The notes under the pieces are model-generated. The model did not search any database. It was not told the DNA's origin and saw only the letters and a list, made by a program, of their open reading frames with translations. Shown in pieces: positions 1,660-10,774 of a DNA stretch of 10,908 nucleotides (the first letter of the stretch is position 1; each line of letters starts with the position of its first letter). A program made the translations under genes and the position numbers. The stretch lies in NCBI GenBank assembly GCA_946011705.1, contig CAMGCA010000036.1, positions 1-10,908 on the forward strand, in the 5' to 3' direction. Origin of the DNA: an uncultured Clostridia bacterium (GTDB lineage: Bacteria > Bacillota > Clostridia > Oscillospirales > Oscillospiraceae).

Positions 1660-3756
1660 ATGGGTACTATCTCCGATTATTTTGGCTGTCTGGTTTTTGA
1701 TGACCGCGTCATGAAGGCGAATTTAAGCTCCGATGTTTATCGGTCTCTGCGTAAGACCATCGAGCAGGGAGCCAAGCTGGACCCCAGTGTGGCCAACGCT
1801 GTCGCCGCTGCCATGAAGGATTGGGCCGTTGCCAACGGTGCTACCCACTATACTCATTGGTTCCAGCCCCTTACCGGCATTACCGCTGAGAAGCACGACA
1901 GCTTCATCTCCCCCGCTCCCGACGGCGGCGTGATCATGGATTTCTCCGGCAAGGAACTGATTAAGGGTGAGCCTGACGCTTCCAGCTTCCCTTCCGGCGG
2001 CCTGCGCGCCACCTTCGAAGCCAGAGGCTATACCGCCTGGGACCCCACCTCCTACGCCTTTATTAAGGGTAAGACCCTTTGCATTCCCACCGCGTTCTGC
2101 TCCTATGGCGGCGAGGCGCTGGATAAGAAGACCCCGCTGCTGCGCTCCATGGAGGCCCTGAACCGTCAGGCCATGCGGATTCTGAAGCTTTTCGGCAACA
2201 AGGATGTCAAGTGTGTCCGTACCTCCGTCGGTCCCGAGCAGGAGTATTTCCTGATTGACCGGGAGATGTACAACAAGCGCAAGGACCTGATTTACACTGG
2301 CCGCACCCTGTTTGGCGCAAAGCCTCCCAAGGGTCAGGAGATGGACGATCACTACTTCGGCGTCATCAAGCCCAGAGTCGCAGCCTACATGGCCGACCTG
2401 AATGAGGAGCTGTGGAAGCTGGGCATTCTGGCAAAGACCGAGCACAACGAGGTTGCCCCCGCTCAGCACGAGCTGGCTCCCATCTACACCACTACCAACA
2501 TCGCCACCGACCACAACCAGCTGACCATGGAGATCATGCAGAAGGTCGCCGCCAAGCATGGCCTGGTGTGCCTGCTCCATGAGAAGCCCTTCGCCGGCGT
2601 CAACGGCTCCGGCAAGCACAACAACTGGTCCATCGCCACCAACACCGGTGTGAACCTGCTGTCCCCTGGTGAGACCCCCTATGAGAACGCCCAGTTCCTG
2701 CTGTTCCTGTGCGCGGTCATCAAGGCCGTAGACGATTATCAGGATTTGCTGCGGCTGTCCGTTGCCACCGCCGGCAACGATCATCGTCTGGGCGCCAACG
2801 AGGCTCCTCCCGCTGTGGTGTCCATTTTCCTGGGCGATGAGCTGATGGCCATTCTGGATGCCATTGAGAACGACACCCCCTATGCCGGCACCCAGAAGAC
2901 CACCATGAAACTGGGCGTGGACGTTCTGCCCCGGTTCGCCCGGGACACCACCGACCGCAACCGTACATCTCCCTTCGCTTTCACCGGCAATAAGTTCGAG
3001 TTCCGTATGCTGGGCTCCTCCAACTCCATTGCCTGCGCCAACATGATGCTCAACTCCGCTGTGGCGGAATCTCTGAAGATCTACGCCGACCGTCTGGAGG
3101 GGGCTGAAGACTTTGAGACCGCCCTGCACGACATGATTAAGAAGACCATCAAGGATCACAAGCACATCCTGTTCAACGGCAACGGCTATGACGAGTCCTG
3201 GATCAAGGAAGCCACCGAAAAGCGGGGCCTGTGCAACTATCCCACTACCCCCGACTGTATGCCCCATCTGCTGGACGAGAAGAACGTGAAGATGCTCACC
3301 TCCCACAAGGTCTTCTCCGTTGCGGAGCTGGAGTCTCGCTGCGAGATCATGCTGGAGAACTACTGCAAGACTGTGCGCATTGAGGCCACCACCATGATTG
3401 ACATGGCCCGCAAGCAGATTCTTCCTGCTGTGGAGAGCTACGTCAGCGATCTTGCTAAGTCCGCCGCTGCAAAGAAGGCCGTTGCTCCCACCGCCGCCTG
3501 TGCCTATGAGACCGGACTGATTACAAAGCTCTCCGTTCTAACGGATCAGATCGCGGAGAAGACCGACGAGCTGGAAAGCGCGCTGCTGGTCCTGTTGGGC
3601 ATCACCGATACCAAAGAAGAAGCCTTCGCTATCCGGGATACCATCCTTGGAAAGATGGCAGCCCTGCGTGCCGTAGCCGATGAGGCTGAGACCCAGACCG
3701 CTGAAAAGTACTGGCCCTTCCCCACCTACGGCGACCTGCTCTTCGGCGTCCGCTAA
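1660..3756 (+). CDS. glnN: Type III glutamine synthetase (GSIII)
   Basis: Cytoplasmic ATP-dependent glutamate-ammonia ligase of the GSIII family, 698 residues, near the usual ~700-730. Seen: the GSIII N-terminal block including [11 protein letters not shown] (121-131) and [14 protein letters not shown] (146-159). The catalytic core follows, with GPEQEYF (E193, E195), [10 protein letters not shown] (E264, E271) and [14 protein letters not shown] (307-320). After that come the [19 protein letters not shown] arginine-rich ATP/glutamate segment and [10 protein letters not shown], and the protein ends in the typical FPTYGDLLF tail. The ATG at 1660 follows GAAAGGG at a suitable distance. It is divergent from a class I enzyme and upstream of the ammonium transporter, which fits a role in ammonium assimilation. 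The promoter and terminator ahead of it suggest expression set by antitermination. All catalytic motifs appear intact. Confidence 0.97.
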
Positions 3757-3785
3757 CATTCGCTACCCTTTCATAGCTGCCAAAT

Positions 3786-3829
3786 GCCGTCCCGGACGGC
3801 CCGTGGGAGGGGGCTGACCACCCCCTCCC
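3786..3829 (+). other. Two GC-rich hairpins after glnN
   Basis: GCCGTC/GACGGC (3786-3800, 3-base loop) is followed by a perfect 9-base stem GGGAGGGGG/CCCCCTCCC (3805-3829, 7-base loop). They lie 30-75 bases after the glnN stop. No U-run follows, so a standard intrinsic terminator is not supported. They may protect the glnN 3' end, pause polymerase, or form part of the transporter gene leader. The 3' arm of the second hairpin contains CCTCC, which could pair with the transporter ribosome binding site GGAGG (3954-3958) if freed. Confidence 0.45.
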
Positions 3830-3860
3830 GGAAAGCGGCTTATGTTTACATGATTCAGTA

Positions 3861-3924
3861 CTTTCCCGGTTTGAGCCACGCGTCCAAATCGGGAAAGCCA
3901 TTTACGGGAGCTTTCATGGCTCCC
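3861..3924 (+). other. Structured leader of the ammonium transporter gene with competing hairpins
   Basis: Bases 3861-3873 pair with 3885-3897 (13 pairs, one G-U, 11-base loop), and GGGAGC (3906-3911) pairs with GCTCCC (3919-3924). A different fold is also possible in the same stretch: GAAAGC (3893-3898) with GCTTTC (3910-3915), or GCCAT (3897-3901) with ATGGC (3916-3920). The alternatives use the arms of both main hairpins, so they exclude each other. I see no promoter in 3757-3965, so this RNA is probably part of a glnN read-through transcript. It matches no riboswitch class that I recognise. Confidence 0.4.
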
Positions 3925-3965
3925 AGGGAAAAAGAGAAGAACCAAATTATTAAGGAGGTAAGATT

Positions 3966-6900
3966 ATGAGTGAAGTATGGAGTGTATGGTATCTGATCGG
4001 CGCGGCATTGGTTTTCTGGATGCAGGCTGGCTTTGCAATGGTGGAAGCCGGTTTTACCAGAGCAAAAAACACCGGCAATATCATCATGAAGAACCTGATG
4101 GACTTCTGCATTGGCACAGTTGTCTTCGTCCTGATCGGTTTCAGTCTGCTGATGGGTGAAGACCTGCTTGGCTTCATCGGCAAGCCCGGGTTCGACCTGT
4201 TCACCGCCTACGAAAGCTTCGATTTCTCCTGCTTCGTATTCAACCTGGTATTCTGCGCCACCACCGCGACCATTGTTTCCGGTGCCATGGCGGAGCGTAC
4301 CAAATTCCTGTCCTACTGCATCTATTCCGCAGTCATCTCCGCATTGATCTATCCCATCGAGGCCCACTGGATCTGGGGCGGCGGCTGGCTGGCAAGCCTG
4401 GGCTTCCACGATTTTGCCGGTTCCTGCGCCATCCACATGGTCGGCGGCATCTCCGCCCTCATCGGCGCGAAGCTGCTCGGACCGCGTATCGGCAAGATAA
4501 CCCAGGACGCTTCCGGCAAGATCGTAAAGGACAACGCCTTCCCCGGCCACAGCATCGCTCTGGGCGCTCTGGGCGTCTTCATCCTCTGGCTGGGCTGGTA
4601 CGGCTTTAACGGCGCTGCCGCGACCTCCGTCGGCCAGCTGGGTTCTATTTTCCTGACCACCACGGTTGCCCCTGCTGTAGCCACCGTTGTGTGCATGATC
4701 TTCACCTGGGTGAAGTACGGCAAACCCGATGTCTCCATGTGTCTGAACGCCTCCCTGGCGGGCCTGGTTGCCATCACCGCCGGCTGCGACGTTACCGACT
4801 GCCTGGGCGCTACCATCATCGGCGCTGTTTCCGGCGTGCTGGTGGTATTCGGTGTGTGGCTGCTTGACCACAAGCTGCGCATCGACGATCCCGTAGGCGC
4901 TGTTGCCGTCCACTGCATGAACGGTATCTGGGGCACCATCGCTGTGGGCTTCTTTGCCACCAGCACCGCTCCCGGCTATGCCGTTGCCAACGCTTCCGGC
5001 GAGACCATCGAGGGTCTGTTCTACGGCGGCGGCTTCCAGCTGCTGGGCCTGCAGCTGCTGGGCTTCGCTTCCGTGGCGCTGTGGACCGTTGTTACCATCA
5101 CTATCACCTTCCTGGTGATCAAGGCTACCATCGGCCTGCGTGTCACAAGAGAGGAAGAGATCACCGGTCTGGACGCTACCGAGCACGGCCTGCCCTCCGC
5201 GTACGCCGGCTTCGCCATGCTGCCTGACATGGTTGATGAGGACGCGCCCGTTGTCGTTACCGGCGATGTTCCCGCCGCCGAAGCAATTCCTGTCAAGAAG
5301 ATGCCGACTTTCGAGGATGGCACCACTCCCAAGTTGACAAAGATCGAGATTATCTGCAAGGAGTCCCGTCTGGAGAATCTGAAGAACGCGATGATTACCA
5401 TTGGTATTTCCGGCATGACCGTTTCCCACGTCATGGGCTGCGGCGCCCAGAAGGGCAAGCCCGAATACTATCGTGGTGTTCCTGTGGAAGCAAGCCTGCT
5501 TCCCAAGGTGCAGGTTGACATTGTGGTCAGTAAGGTTCCCGTCCGTACTGTCATCGAAACCGCTAAGAAGGTGCTGTATACCGGTCACATTGGCGACGGC
5601 AAGATTTTCGTATATGATGTCGAGAATGTCGTTAAGGTTCGTACCGGTGAAGAGGGCTACGATGCCCTGCAGGATGTAGAATGTTGTCGTTGGGGTGTGC
5701 GGCGTTTTGGGGCTCTCGCTCGGGTTGGTTTTAAGGAGGAAACAGATATGTGTTCCATTATTGGTTATTGCGGAAAGCCTCTGGACATGGCAGCGTTTCA
5801 GAAGGGCTTTTCCAGAACGATCTCCCGCGGTCCTGATGATTCCCGCATTCTGGATGTGGGCCAGGGCATTCTTGGTTTTCACCGTCTTTCCATTATGGGC
5901 CTGCATCCGGAGGGAATGCAACCCTTTACCCTGAATTCCAGCGCCGTTGTCTGCAACGGTGAAATCTACGGCTTCGAAAAATTCCGCAGCCAGCTGCGTG
6001 GCAAATATACGTTTAACAGTGACAGTGACTGTGAGATTCTGCTGCCCCTGTACTTTGAGTACGGCGTAAAAATGTTCTCCATGCTGGATGCCGAGTACGC
6101 CTGCATTCTGTACGATGGAGAAAAGAAACAGTTTATCGCCGCCAGAGACCCCATCGGCATCCGCCCGCTTTACTACGGCTACGATGCGGCGGGAACCATT
6201 GTGTTTGCCAGCGAACCCAAGAACCTGATGGGCCTTGTGAAGGAAATTCTCCCCTTCCCTCCCGGCCACTACTATGCCGACGGCAAGTTCGTGTGTTATA
6301 ATGATATCGCGGCGGTAGATTCCTATTGCCACGATGATCTGGAAACGGTCTGCGGAAACATTCACGACAAATTGGTAGCAGGCGTTCAGAAGCGTTTGGT
6401 TGCGGATGCCAAGGTTGGCTTCCTGCTCAGCGGCGGTCTGGATTCCTCTCTTGTGTGCGCAATCGCTGCCCGGGAAAGTGAAAAACCCATCAAAACCTTT
6501 GCCATTGGTATGTCCGGAGACGCCATTGACCTGAAATATGCCAAGCAGGTTGCCGATTTTTTGGGCAGCGACCACAAAGAAGTTATAATTTCTAAAGAAA
6601 TAGTCTTGCAGGCTCTGGAAAATGTGATAGAATTACTAGGGACGTTCGATATCACAACCATCCGTGCCAGCATTGGTATGTATCTGGTCTGCAAGTACAT
6701 CCACGAGAACACGGATATCCGCGTCCTGCTGACCGGCGAGATTTCCGATGAGCTGTTCGGCTACAAGTACACCGATTTCGCGCCCTCCGGAGAAGCTTTC
6801 CAGACGGAAGCCCAGAAGCGTATCCGGGAGCTGCATATGTACGATGTGCTTCGGGCTGACCGCTGCATCAGCGTCAACTCGCTGGAAGCCCGCGTCCCCT

Positions 6901-7328
6901 TCGGTGATCTGGACTTTGTCAAATACGTCATGTCCATTGATCCGGAACTGAAACTCAACAGGTACAATAAGGGTAAGTACCTGCTCCGCCACGCCTTTGA
7001 GGAGGGCGGCTATCTCCCCCATGACATCCTGTGGCGGGAGAAAGCGGCTTTTTCCGATGCCGTGGGTCACTCCATGGTGGATTACCTGAAGGAATACGCG
7101 GAATCCTGCTATACCCAGGAGGAGTTCGAACTGAAGCGTCAAAAATACTCCCACGCTCAGCCCTTTACCAAAGAGTCGCTGCTCTACCGTGAAATCTTTG
7201 AGAAATACTACCCCGGTCAAGGTCAGATGATTGTGGATTTCTGGATGCCGAACAAGGAGTGGGAAGGCTGCAATGTCAGCGATCCTTCCGCCCGTGTTCT
7301 GTCCAACTACGGTGACAGCGGAAAATAA
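3966..7328 (+). CDS. amt: Ammonium transporter-PII (GlnK) protein, frame open into asparagine synthetase
   Basis: Open frame of 1120 codons. Residues 1-~400 are an Amt/Mep/Rh channel with about 11 membrane segments. The signature [13 protein letters not shown] starts at D149, the pore histidines are H157 and H316, and the AHWIWGGG and WYGFN motifs are present. After a ~50-residue linker, residues 457-572 form a PII domain with a T-loop (YYRG, R503) and the signature [10 protein letters not shown] (539-548). PII binds ATP/ADP and 2-oxoglutarate and plugs the channel when nitrogen is ample; Amt-PII fusions are known in Firmicutes. The uridylylated Tyr51 of enteric PII is Val here (V507). The start ATG has AAGGAGGT seven bases upstream. 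The PII domain should stop after E572, but codon 573 is TGT and the frame runs through 22 codons into AsnB. The Amt-PII product is certain; whether the full fusion is made is not. Confidence 0.85.
5682..5747 (+). other. 22-codon linker with no stop between the PII domain and AsnB
   Basis: This stretch follows the natural end of the PII domain and precedes the AsnB ATG. It is G/T-rich and uses codons unlike the flanking genes (CGT, CGG, GGG, TTT, GTT clustered), and its last third is a ribosome binding site, so it reads like an intergenic spacer that happens to lack a stop. The first codon, TGT, is one base from TGA. Stops are present in the other two frames (TAG at 5677, TAA at 5732). Either a stop-loss mutation, a sequence error or a real fusion would explain it. 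Confidence 0.7.
5733..5740 (+). promoter_or_regulatory. Internal ribosome binding site for asnB
   Basis: AAGGAGGA lies eight bases before the ATG at 5748. It is as strong as the sites of the separate downstream genes. It supports independent initiation of AsnB with Met then Cys, even though the upstream frame stays open through it. Confidence 0.8.
5748..7328 (+). CDS. asnB: Asparagine synthetase B, glutamine-hydrolysing
   Basis: Makes asparagine from aspartate, glutamine and ATP. 526 residues, slightly shorter than E. coli AsnB (554). Domain 1 is a class II glutamine amidotransferase: nucleophile Cys2 right after Met, RGPDDS (27-32), HRLSIM (45-50), NGEIYG (70-75). Domain 2 is the synthetase: PP-loop SGGLDSS (228-234), [10 protein letters not shown] (329-338), and a later [11 protein letters not shown]. 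The cysteine must be N-terminal after Met removal, so the internal ATG with its own ribosome binding site is taken as the true start. If made only as a C-terminal part of the Amt-PII frame, the enzyme would lose glutaminase chemistry and at best use free ammonium. Bases 6581-6650 contain an AT-rich, rare-codon patch without disrupting the protein. It sits between ammonium uptake and the aspartate-using purine genes. Confidence 0.93.
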
Positions 7329-7345
7329 TCAGGAGGAACAAAGAA

Positions 7346-8059
7346 ATGGAACAGAAAGAGCAGCTTTATGAAGGGAAGGCAAAAAAGGTTTTTGCCACCG
7401 ATGACCCCGAGCTTCTGATCGTGGCGTACAAGGATGACGCTACGGCATTCAATGGGCTGAAAAAAGGCACCATTGTGGGCAAGGGCGTCATCAACAACAA
7501 GATGAGCAACCGCCTGATGGCGATGCTGGAAAAGAACGGCATCCCCACCCACTATGTGCGCGAGCTCAGTGACCGGGAGACCCTGGTCAAGAAGGTCAGC
7601 ATCGTCCCCCTGGAGGTTATCGTGCGCAATATCTCCGCCGGCTCCTTCGCCAAGCATTACGGCGTGGAGGAAGGCATTGTATTCGAACAGCCCACCGTGG
7701 AATACTCCTATAAGAATGACGCCCTCGGCGATCCCCTGCTGAATACCAGCCACGCGCTGGCCCTGAAGCTGGCTACTGCAGAGGAAATCGAAACTATCCG
7801 CACCTACGCCCTGCGCGTCGATGAACTGCTCAAGGCCTTCTGGAAGACCTGCGGCGTTACGCTGGTGGACTTCAAGCTGGAGTTTGGCCGCCTCAGCGAC
7901 GGTACCATTGTGCTGGCTGACGAAATCAGCCCCGATACCTGCCGCCTGTGGGATGCCGCTACCGGTGAAAAGCTGGACAAGGACCGTTTCCGCCGGGATC
8001 TGGGCGGTGTGGAGGAGGCCTACGCCGAAATCATGCACCGGCTGGAAGAGCACCTGTAA
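7346..8059 (+). CDS. purC: Phosphoribosylaminoimidazole-succinocarboxamide (SAICAR) synthase
   Basis: Joins aspartate to CAIR using ATP, giving SAICAR in de novo purine synthesis. 237 residues, the standard bacterial length. Seen: the N-terminal [10 protein letters not shown] nucleotide-binding strand (7-16), both SAICAR synthetase signatures, [15 protein letters not shown] (86-100) and LVDFKLEFG (173-181), and [13 protein letters not shown] (191-203). The AGGAGG at 7331-7336 sets the ATG. The gap after asnB is 17 bases, so the gene is co-transcribed and probably translationally coupled. No missing residues were noticed. It is the first of four purine genes and shares aspartate as substrate with AsnB and PurA. 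Confidence 0.97.
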
Positions 8060-8071
8060 GGAGGTACCTAA

Positions 8072-9346
8072 ATGGCTAATTCTGCGATTGTTGGCATCAA
8101 CTGGGGCGACGAAGGCAAGGGGCGTATGGTCGACCTGCTGACAGATCACTTTGATGTGGTCGTCCGTTATCAGGGCGGCGGCAACGCCGGTCACACCGTG
8201 GTAAACGATCAGGGCAAGTTTGCCCTGCATCTGCTGCCTTCCGGTATTTTCCGCCAGGGTGTTGTCAATATTCTGGGCAACGGTGTTGCCCTGGATCCCG
8301 AGAATCTCTGGAAGGAAATTGAGGAGGTCACCAGCAAGGGTGTCCCCATTACCCCGGAGAACCTGAAAATCAGTGACCGGGCTTCCCTGCTGCTGCCCTG
8401 GCACCGGGAGCTGGACGGACTGGAAGAGGCCCGTCTGGCAGATAAAAAGTACGGTTCCACCAAACAGGGCATTGCCCCGTTCTACTCTGACAAGTATCAG
8501 AAGAAGACCATCCTCGCCGGTGAGCTGCTGTACCCTGAACACCTCATGGAGCACCTGAAGGATTTGATGGAGTGGAAGAATCTGACCCTGACCCGGGTGT
8601 ACGGCGCCAAGCCTGTTACCATGGAGGATCTGGAAGTCTGGATTGATGTTTTCTGCAACAAGATCAAGCCCTTTATCTGCGACACCGGCGCCTTCCTGCG
8701 GAAGGCCCAGACAGAGGGAAAGCAGATCCTGTTTGAGGCCCAGTTGGGCGCCCTGCGCGACCTGGATTACGGCATCCATCCCTACACCACCTCCTCCAAC
8801 GCCATCGCTGCCTACGCCCCCGTGGGTTCCGGCCTGCCGTCGGCGAAAATTGATGAGGTCATCGGCGTGGTCAAGGCCTACTCCACCTGCGTCGGTGAAG
8901 GCCCCTTTGTGTGCGAGATGTTCGGCGAGGAAGCGGAGGAGCTTCGTAAGGCTGGCTTTGAATACGGCGCGAAAACCGGCCGTCCCCGCCGTGTCGGCCC
9001 CATCGACATCGTGGCTACCCGCTACGGTATCCACGTGCAGGCCGCTACCAATGTGGCTCTGACAAAGCTGGACGGCCTGAGTTATCTGGATAAAATCCCC
9101 ATCTGTACCCACTACACCATCGATGGTCAGATTACCGATGAGTTCCCCTTCCCCTCCCTGCTGAACGACGCGAAACCGGTCATCGAATATATGGATGGCT
9201 GGAAGTGCGACATTTCCGGCGTGCGGAACTGGGAAGATCTGCCGGAGGCAGCCCGGAGATATGTGGAATTCATTGAACAGAATATCGATTGCCATATTGG
9301 CTATGTCTCCGTGGGTCCCGAGAGAGACAGCATCATTATTCGTTAA
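8072..9346 (+). CDS. purA: Adenylosuccinate synthetase, divergent motif variant
   Basis: Condenses IMP with aspartate using GTP to give adenylosuccinate, the first committed step to AMP. 424 residues, normal length. Seen: WGDEGKG P-loop (11-17) with catalytic D13, GGGNAGHT with H41, TSSN (240-243), TGRPRR (302-307), and the guanine-binding TKLD (331-334). Several normally fixed segments differ: NWGDEGKG instead of QWGDEGKG, a GSTKQGIAPFYSDK stretch (128-141) in place of the usual GTTGRGIGPAYEDK type, FEAQLG instead of FEGAQG (221-226), and RRVGP instead of RRCGW. Catalytic residues are kept, so activity is expected and the gene probably belongs to a divergent clade. The AAGGAGG at 8058-8064 overlaps the purC stop codon, suggesting translational coupling. 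Confidence 0.95.
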   Translation: MANSAIVGINWGDEGKGRMVDLLTDHFDVVVRYQGGGNAGHTVVNDQGKFALHLLPSGIFRQGVVNILGNGVALDPENLWKEIEEVTSKGVPITPENLKISDRASLLLPWHRELDGLEEARLADKKYGSTKQGIAPFYSDKYQKKTILAGELLYPEHLMEHLKDLMEWKNLTLTRVYGAKPVTMEDLEVWIDVFCNKIKPFICDTGAFLRKAQTEGKQILFEAQLGALRDLDYGIHPYTTSSNAIAAYAPVGSGLPSAKIDEVIGVVKAYSTCVGEGPFVCEMFGEEAEELRKAGFEYGAKTGRPRRVGPIDIVATRYGIHVQAATNVALTKLDGLSYLDKIPICTHYTIDGQITDEFPFPSLLNDAKPVIEYMDGWKCDISGVRNWEDLPEAARRYVEFIEQNIDCHIGYVSVGPERDSIIIR

Positions 9347-9358
9347 GGAGAAAAAGAA

Positions 9359-10774
9359 ATGACCGAGAAATACGAGTCCCCGCTGAGTTCCCGCTATGCC
9401 TCGGAGTATATGCTGAAGCTGTTCTCCATGGATACCCGGATTCAGACCTGGCGTAAGCTATGGGTCTCGCTGGCAAGGGCGGAAATGGAGTTGGGCCTGC
9501 CTGTTACGGCAGAACAGGTGGCCCAGCTGGAGGCGCACATCACCGATATCGACTATGAATGCGCCGCGGCCCGGGAAAAAGAAGTGCGCCACGATGTGAT
9601 GGCCCATGTCTATGCCTACGGCAAGGTCGCGCCGGAGGCTGCCGGTATCATTCACCTGGGCGCTACCAGCTGCTATGTCACCGACAATGCGGACATTGTC
9701 ATTTACCGCGACGGTCTGAAATATCTTCGCGGGGAGCTTCTCAAGGTTGTCGCGAATCTGGCAGAATTCGCTTCCCACTACAAGGCCATGCCTACACTTG
9801 GCTACACACACTATCAGCCCGCACAGCTGGTCACTGTGGGCAAACGCGCAACCCTTTGGATGCAGGATTTCCTGGCGGATCTGGAAGAACTGGATTTTGT
9901 GCTGGAAACCATGAAATTTCTTGGCTGCCGGGGCACTACCGGCACCGAGGCCAGCTTCCTGGAGCTTTTTGGCGGCGACACCGGGAAGATCGACGAAATG
10001 AACAAGAAAATCAGCGCGGACTTTGGATTCAGCAAGTGTTTCAGCGTCTGCGGTCAGACCTATCCCCGGAAGCTGGACAGCCGGATCCTCAATGTCCTGT
10101 CCTCCATCGCCCAGAGCTGCTACCGGATGGCCAACGATATCCGCCTGCTGCAGCATGACCGTCAGGTGGAAGAGCCTTTTGAAAAGAATCAGATTGGCTC
10201 CTCCGCCATGGCTTACAAGCGCAATCCCATGCGCTCTGAGCGTATTTGTTCCCTGTCCCGCTATCTGATGGCGGATGCCCTGAACGCTCCCATGACGGCC
10301 TCTACCCAGTGGCTGGAGCGTACACTGGACGATTCCGCCAACCGCCGCATTTCCCTGCCCGAGGGCTTCCTCTGCGCGGACGCCATTTTGCGGCTGGCTC
10401 AGAATGTGCCCAACGGCCTGCACGGCCTCGAGGAAAGCGAGGGGGAGCCGGTGCGGGAGTTTCTGCCCATTATCGCCACGGAAAATCTGATGATGGAAGG
10501 CGTGAAGCATGGCGGCAACCGTCAGGAGCTGCATGAGATCATCCGCAGCTGCTCCATGGACGCCACCGCGAAAATGAAGAACGGCGAAAGCTGGGATCTT
10601 CTCAGCGATCTGGCAACGCACTCCGAGTTCGGCATGACCAAGGAAGAGATGGATGCCGTCATGGATCCCTCCCTCTATACCGGCCGGTGCGCCGAGCAGG
10701 TGGAGCGCTTCCTGGCGGAAGTCCGGCCGCTGCTTGCCGACGTATCCAAGTCGGATACGGAAATCAACCTGTAA
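9359..10774 (+). CDS. purB: Adenylosuccinate lyase, animal ADSL-like type
   Basis: Removes fumarate from SAICAR and from adenylosuccinate, so it acts on the products of both PurC and PurA encoded just upstream. 471 residues. Seen: RHDVMAH (77-83), [15 protein letters not shown] (96-110), THYQPAQ with catalytic H151, the fumarate-lyase loop [11 protein letters not shown] (280-290) with the catalytic serine region, and [13 protein letters not shown] (318-330). The length and these segments resemble vertebrate ADSL more than the ~430-residue B. subtilis PurB. The AAGGAG at 9345-9350 overlaps the purA stop, and the ATG follows 12 bases after that stop. No defects were seen. Confidence 0.96.

Follow-up and report, generated by a model that had tools for sequence, protein, structure and literature searches.

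We propose that the single reading frame joining an ammonium channel, a PII sensor and an asparagine synthetase in the stretch of DNA analysed here (10,908 nt, hereafter the window) very probably reflects an error in the draft sequence, by which two adjacent genes, a stop-ended Amt-PII gene and a separate asnB, were linked through a miscalled spacer. The window lacks a stop codon that the relatives compared carry, its spacer departs from theirs by one-sided substitutions, and a hairpin kept in their spacers is broken; from this we infer that the strain itself carries the stop. The draft genome from which the window comes (as contig 36) consists of 372 contigs, with a completeness of 73.36% and a contamination of 3.36%; it presumably derives from a metagenome assembly.

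The frame itself is as the first-pass annotation described it: according to the list of open reading frames, positions 3966-7328 hold 1120 codons without a stop. Its product carries an ammonium transporter domain (residues 7-409) followed in the same frame by a P-II domain (458-562), both above the Pfam gathering score. Positions 3966-5681 thus show the domain pair of the Amt-PII fused ammonium transporters (PF00909 + PF00543), a pair carried by many database proteins among the matches listed in a search that took lengths from 616 aa; the difference from these proteins is that, in the present assembly, the frame continues into asnB. A literature search on Amt with a PII domain matched no paper. 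The PII part ends near E572 (codon 5679-5681) and is followed by a linker of 22 codons (5682-5747). The AsnB part runs from residue 595, where ATG TGT at 5748 places a cysteine at position 2 after the start codon, a possible N-terminal Cys. The curated cut-off is exceeded by both its amidotransferase and its Asn_synthase domain, and positions 5748-7325 reach 614.9 bits with NF006949, whose cut-off is 499. Read from its own ATG, this part shows no difference from AsnB, asparagine synthase B (NF006949, TIGR01536), including the Met-Cys start. The positions given earlier for the PII end, the linker, the ribosome site and the ATG with Cys2 all proved accurate (Table 1).

Table 1. Features of the amt-PII/asnB junction, in positions of the window; G009 is the closest relative.
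Feature	Position	Strand	Basis
Amt-PII gene	3966..5681	+	PF00909 397.2 bits, PF00543 81.4 bits; the relatives' gene stops here
Abnormal A-free spacer stretch; relatives have stop and hairpin here	5682..5724	+	comparison with G009
Shine-Dalgarno-like AAGGAGG of asnB	5733..5739	+	read from the sequence; the six closest relatives share GGTTTTAAGGAGGAAACAG with the window
asnB, glutamine-dependent asparagine synthetase, Cys at position 2	5748..7328	+	NF006949 asparagine synthase B, 614.9 bits

The junction was compared in two sets of relatives. For the first, the 80 best loci were taken out of at least 590 in genome_contigs; 71 of the 80 gave a PII end, the other nine having an asnB match and no Amt match. 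For the second, restricted to the same genus, 101 genomes were searched by protein and 136 with the junction DNA; 43 of the 136 matched the latter, the window's own genome included, and 28 loci (L122-L149) from the 42 others were used, L150 being left out as it matches the asnB side only. A stop codon stands at the PII end or at most two codons further on in every locus of both sets: in the first set directly after the codon matching 5681 in 65/71 and within two codons in 6/71, and in the genus loci (28/28) directly in 27 and two codons on in one. The window, put through the same test, was the sole exception. asnB lies downstream on the same strand in 47 of the 71 and downstream in 18 of the 28 loci; the stop precedes it in 47/47 and 18/18, and it begins with ATG TGT or ATG TGC in all of them. 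L038 and L072 both have a stop ahead of asnB, and an alignment of 18 selected junctions had TAA in every one. A fused Amt-PII-AsnB frame was found in none of the relatives with both genes (0/47 in genome_contigs, 0/18 in the genus). Overall, the domain logic by which two proteins had been expected is supported. The further suggestion, that a membrane-tethered Amt-PII-AsnB is made as well, is opposed by a stop at or within two codons of 5682 in 71/71 and 28/28 loci, which is the very outcome of the junction comparison that had been named beforehand as speaking against the fusion.

Protein databases point the same way. Among about 5.8 billion proteins, searched within 0.55-1.75 times the query length and with fusions judged by precomputed Pfam domains, no Amt-PII-AsnB protein occurred among the 120 listed of 770 matches or the 120 listed of 1122, and none of those listed combined a transporter or PII domain with a synthetase domain. 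In the search with 1122 matches, scoring covered the 7993 candidates with most words in common, and the best match among those listed reached 1149 bits at 51% query coverage, against 2588.8 bits for the window's frame versus itself. P0001 and P0002, the best matches of the search with 770 matches, are not fusions with Amt: each is a synthetase that starts with Met-Cys and has an inner repeat.

The window has no stop at the junction because of an abnormal A-free stretch in the spacer, 5682-5724; every stop codon contains an A, and an A-free stretch therefore opens any frame. The A-free run as a whole (5682-5732, 51 nt) is the longest of the window, the next one measuring 31 nt. As stand-alone evidence it is weak, since A-free or T-free runs of at least 40 nt are not unusual for this draft (31 in 335,047 bases of 19 sampled contigs), and the argument thus rests on the comparison with relatives.

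With G009 as the reference, the frame outside 5682-5724 differs at 169 of 3317 columns (5.1%), 123 of these differences being transitions and only 10 falling into the class A>T or C>G. Within the stretch, differences occupy 17 of 43 aligned columns, with 7 further gap columns (the window's spacer being 7 nt shorter than that of G009), and 14 of the 17 belong to that class; the other three (two A>G, one C>T) were placed by the aligner in the gapped 5' part. Over the 37 ungapped columns 5688-5724, all 12 differences belong to this one class (7 A>T, 5 C>G), altering 7/7 A and 5/13 C of G009 and none of its 13 G or 4 T. If each change followed the outside spectrum, 12/12 would have a probability of about 2e-15, a figure that assumes independent changes and a coding spectrum valid for the spacer. 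The other relatives in register over the 37 columns give a similar share (12/15 for G052, 11/16 for G076, 11/15 for G084), while these three and G009 differ mutually at 1-7 columns. G030 and G132, with a loop one base shorter, are out of register and count for the last 16 columns only; there, the share is 3/3 for four relatives, 3/4 for G084 and 3/5 for G076, the six closest relatives differing mutually at 0-2 sites. Among 49,544 aligned columns (39 of the 372 contigs of the draft genome, each up to its first 20 kb, aligned with 60 contigs of G009 limited likewise and with L112), this was the only place where a 40-column segment held at least 10 substitutions all of one tested class; no second place like 5688-5724 was found there that would show the fault to recur.

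These same changes break a strong hairpin. The spacers of six relatives fold at -28.0 to -31.6 kcal/mol, that of the window at -12.0 kcal/mol and into a different structure. The pattern GGGAGAGC-N10-20-GCTCTCCC was found in six of nine genomes searched, each time at the amt-PII/asnB spacer, with a second match elsewhere in the genome of G052; the exact pattern was not found in the window's own genome, G005 or G032, and the pattern run backward as a control had a single match, in G009. In L112, L113, L114, L118, L119 and L151, the hairpin reads GGGAGAGC(C/T)GC..GC(G/A)GCTCTCCC and corresponds to 5688-5724 of the window. It lies just upstream of the asnB ribosome site and shows C-G/T-A swaps among the relatives. 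Searched with the spacer from six sources, Rfam yielded nothing at E ≤ 1. The hairpin may be a putative regulatory or stability element of asnB.

To our knowledge, a one-sided mixture of A>T and C>G fits no familiar mutagen or drift pattern, and the first-pass annotation had already named a base error as the plain alternative to its fusion. The substitution pattern now favours that alternative, since it agrees better with faulty base calling than with evolution. In two-colour Illumina sequencing, according to PMC13218037, T is seen in green, C in red, A in both and G in neither. Losing the red image would turn A into T and C into G. The artefact described in that paper is an excess of T>G and A>C, which would correspond to a loss of green; red loss is our extension of it. 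One lost colour predicts paired one-sided errors, and red loss predicts precisely A>T with C>G, the only changes in 5688-5724 (12/12) and 14 of the 17 in the gapped stretch 5682-5724, all against G009. Our case differs from the artefact published in PMC13218037 both in the bases exchanged and in being a probable run of errors in an assembled contig.

A red-channel loss is thus our candidate for the instrument cause, with two conditions attached. As 8 of the 13 C are unchanged, the loss would have to be partial; and as an assembler usually requires more than one read, either the depth was very low or several reads shared the fault. Reads passing through the stable hairpin would most likely have lost red-channel signal, turning A into T and part of C into G, and the miscalled stretch, now without A, would read open and link the two genes. 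Phasing, with each base replaced by its neighbour, did not fit the alignment block when read by eye.

Among the alternatives, we give most attention to the sequence being right, although we consider this improbable. A recent real change of the spacer would have removed the stop, with asnB still expressed mainly from its own start and some read-through to Amt-PII-AsnB. The frame is indeed open as given, the spacer of 66 nt is a multiple of three, and natural indels do occur in the genus, where spacers measure 66-80 nt and, in one case, 305 nt. However, a real stop loss requires 12 of 12 one-sided transversions within 37 nt, against 5.1% divergence made up largely of transitions elsewhere (123/169); it also disrupts the hairpin, which is kept, with C-G/T-A swaps, among six close relatives, and no Amt-PII-AsnB protein stood among the database matches listed. 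That a true stop loss, in addition, yields a minor read-through product tethering AsnB to the ammonium channel beside the free enzyme seems to us highly improbable.

Some other fault of assembly, such as a single bad read filling a low-depth gap, or mixed strains, is less probable still; the fragmentation, incompleteness and contamination of the draft and the stable GC-rich hairpin at this place in the relatives would suit it, inverted repeats being known to provoke Illumina errors, but a strain mixture is not expected to leave A>T and C>G alone, a pattern that points to base calling. Two further ideas were discarded: a diversity-generating retroelement, whose mutagenesis is directed at A, since C is altered too; and template switching inside the hairpin, since, judged from sequences and folds, the change breaks the pairing and copies neither arm.

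Under the preferred reading, that of two genes and a miscalled spacer, the Amt-PII gene would end with its stop, and some 66 nt of spacer, bearing the hairpin and a Shine-Dalgarno site, would part it from asnB, a gene of its own. The cell would make an Amt-PII channel in which, judging from the functions of these families, the PII domain should gate ammonium entry by nitrogen status, while AsnB would be made separately from its own Shine-Dalgarno site with Cys2 free; a physical link between channel and enzyme would not be needed. An attractive channel-sensor-enzyme fusion, which is probably false, is thereby removed. We also suggest a simple test for apparent gene fusions in draft assemblies: since losing A abolishes every stop codon, a short A-free junction (T-free on the other strand) should be suspected where it differs from relatives by A>T and C>G alone.

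The surroundings of the two genes deserve a final comment. Upstream lies an open reading frame (1660-3756) that we take to be a glnN-like glutamine synthetase, and the further neighbouring frames are presumably purine genes, so that nitrogen and purine genes form one run over 1660-10774 (glnN-like, amt-PII, asnB, then purine). A glnN-like gene, amt-PII and asnB occur on one strand and in this order in 39 of 80 related loci, 12 of which have purC and/or purA matches behind asnB, counted on flanks of at most 4 kb and with many loci cut by contig ends. Co-location with a glutamine synthetase-like gene suits a role in nitrogen assimilation. Elsewhere in the draft genome, one contig (G000:C17, locus L168) holds several long T-free runs of up to 138 nt, perhaps a contaminant or a repeat.
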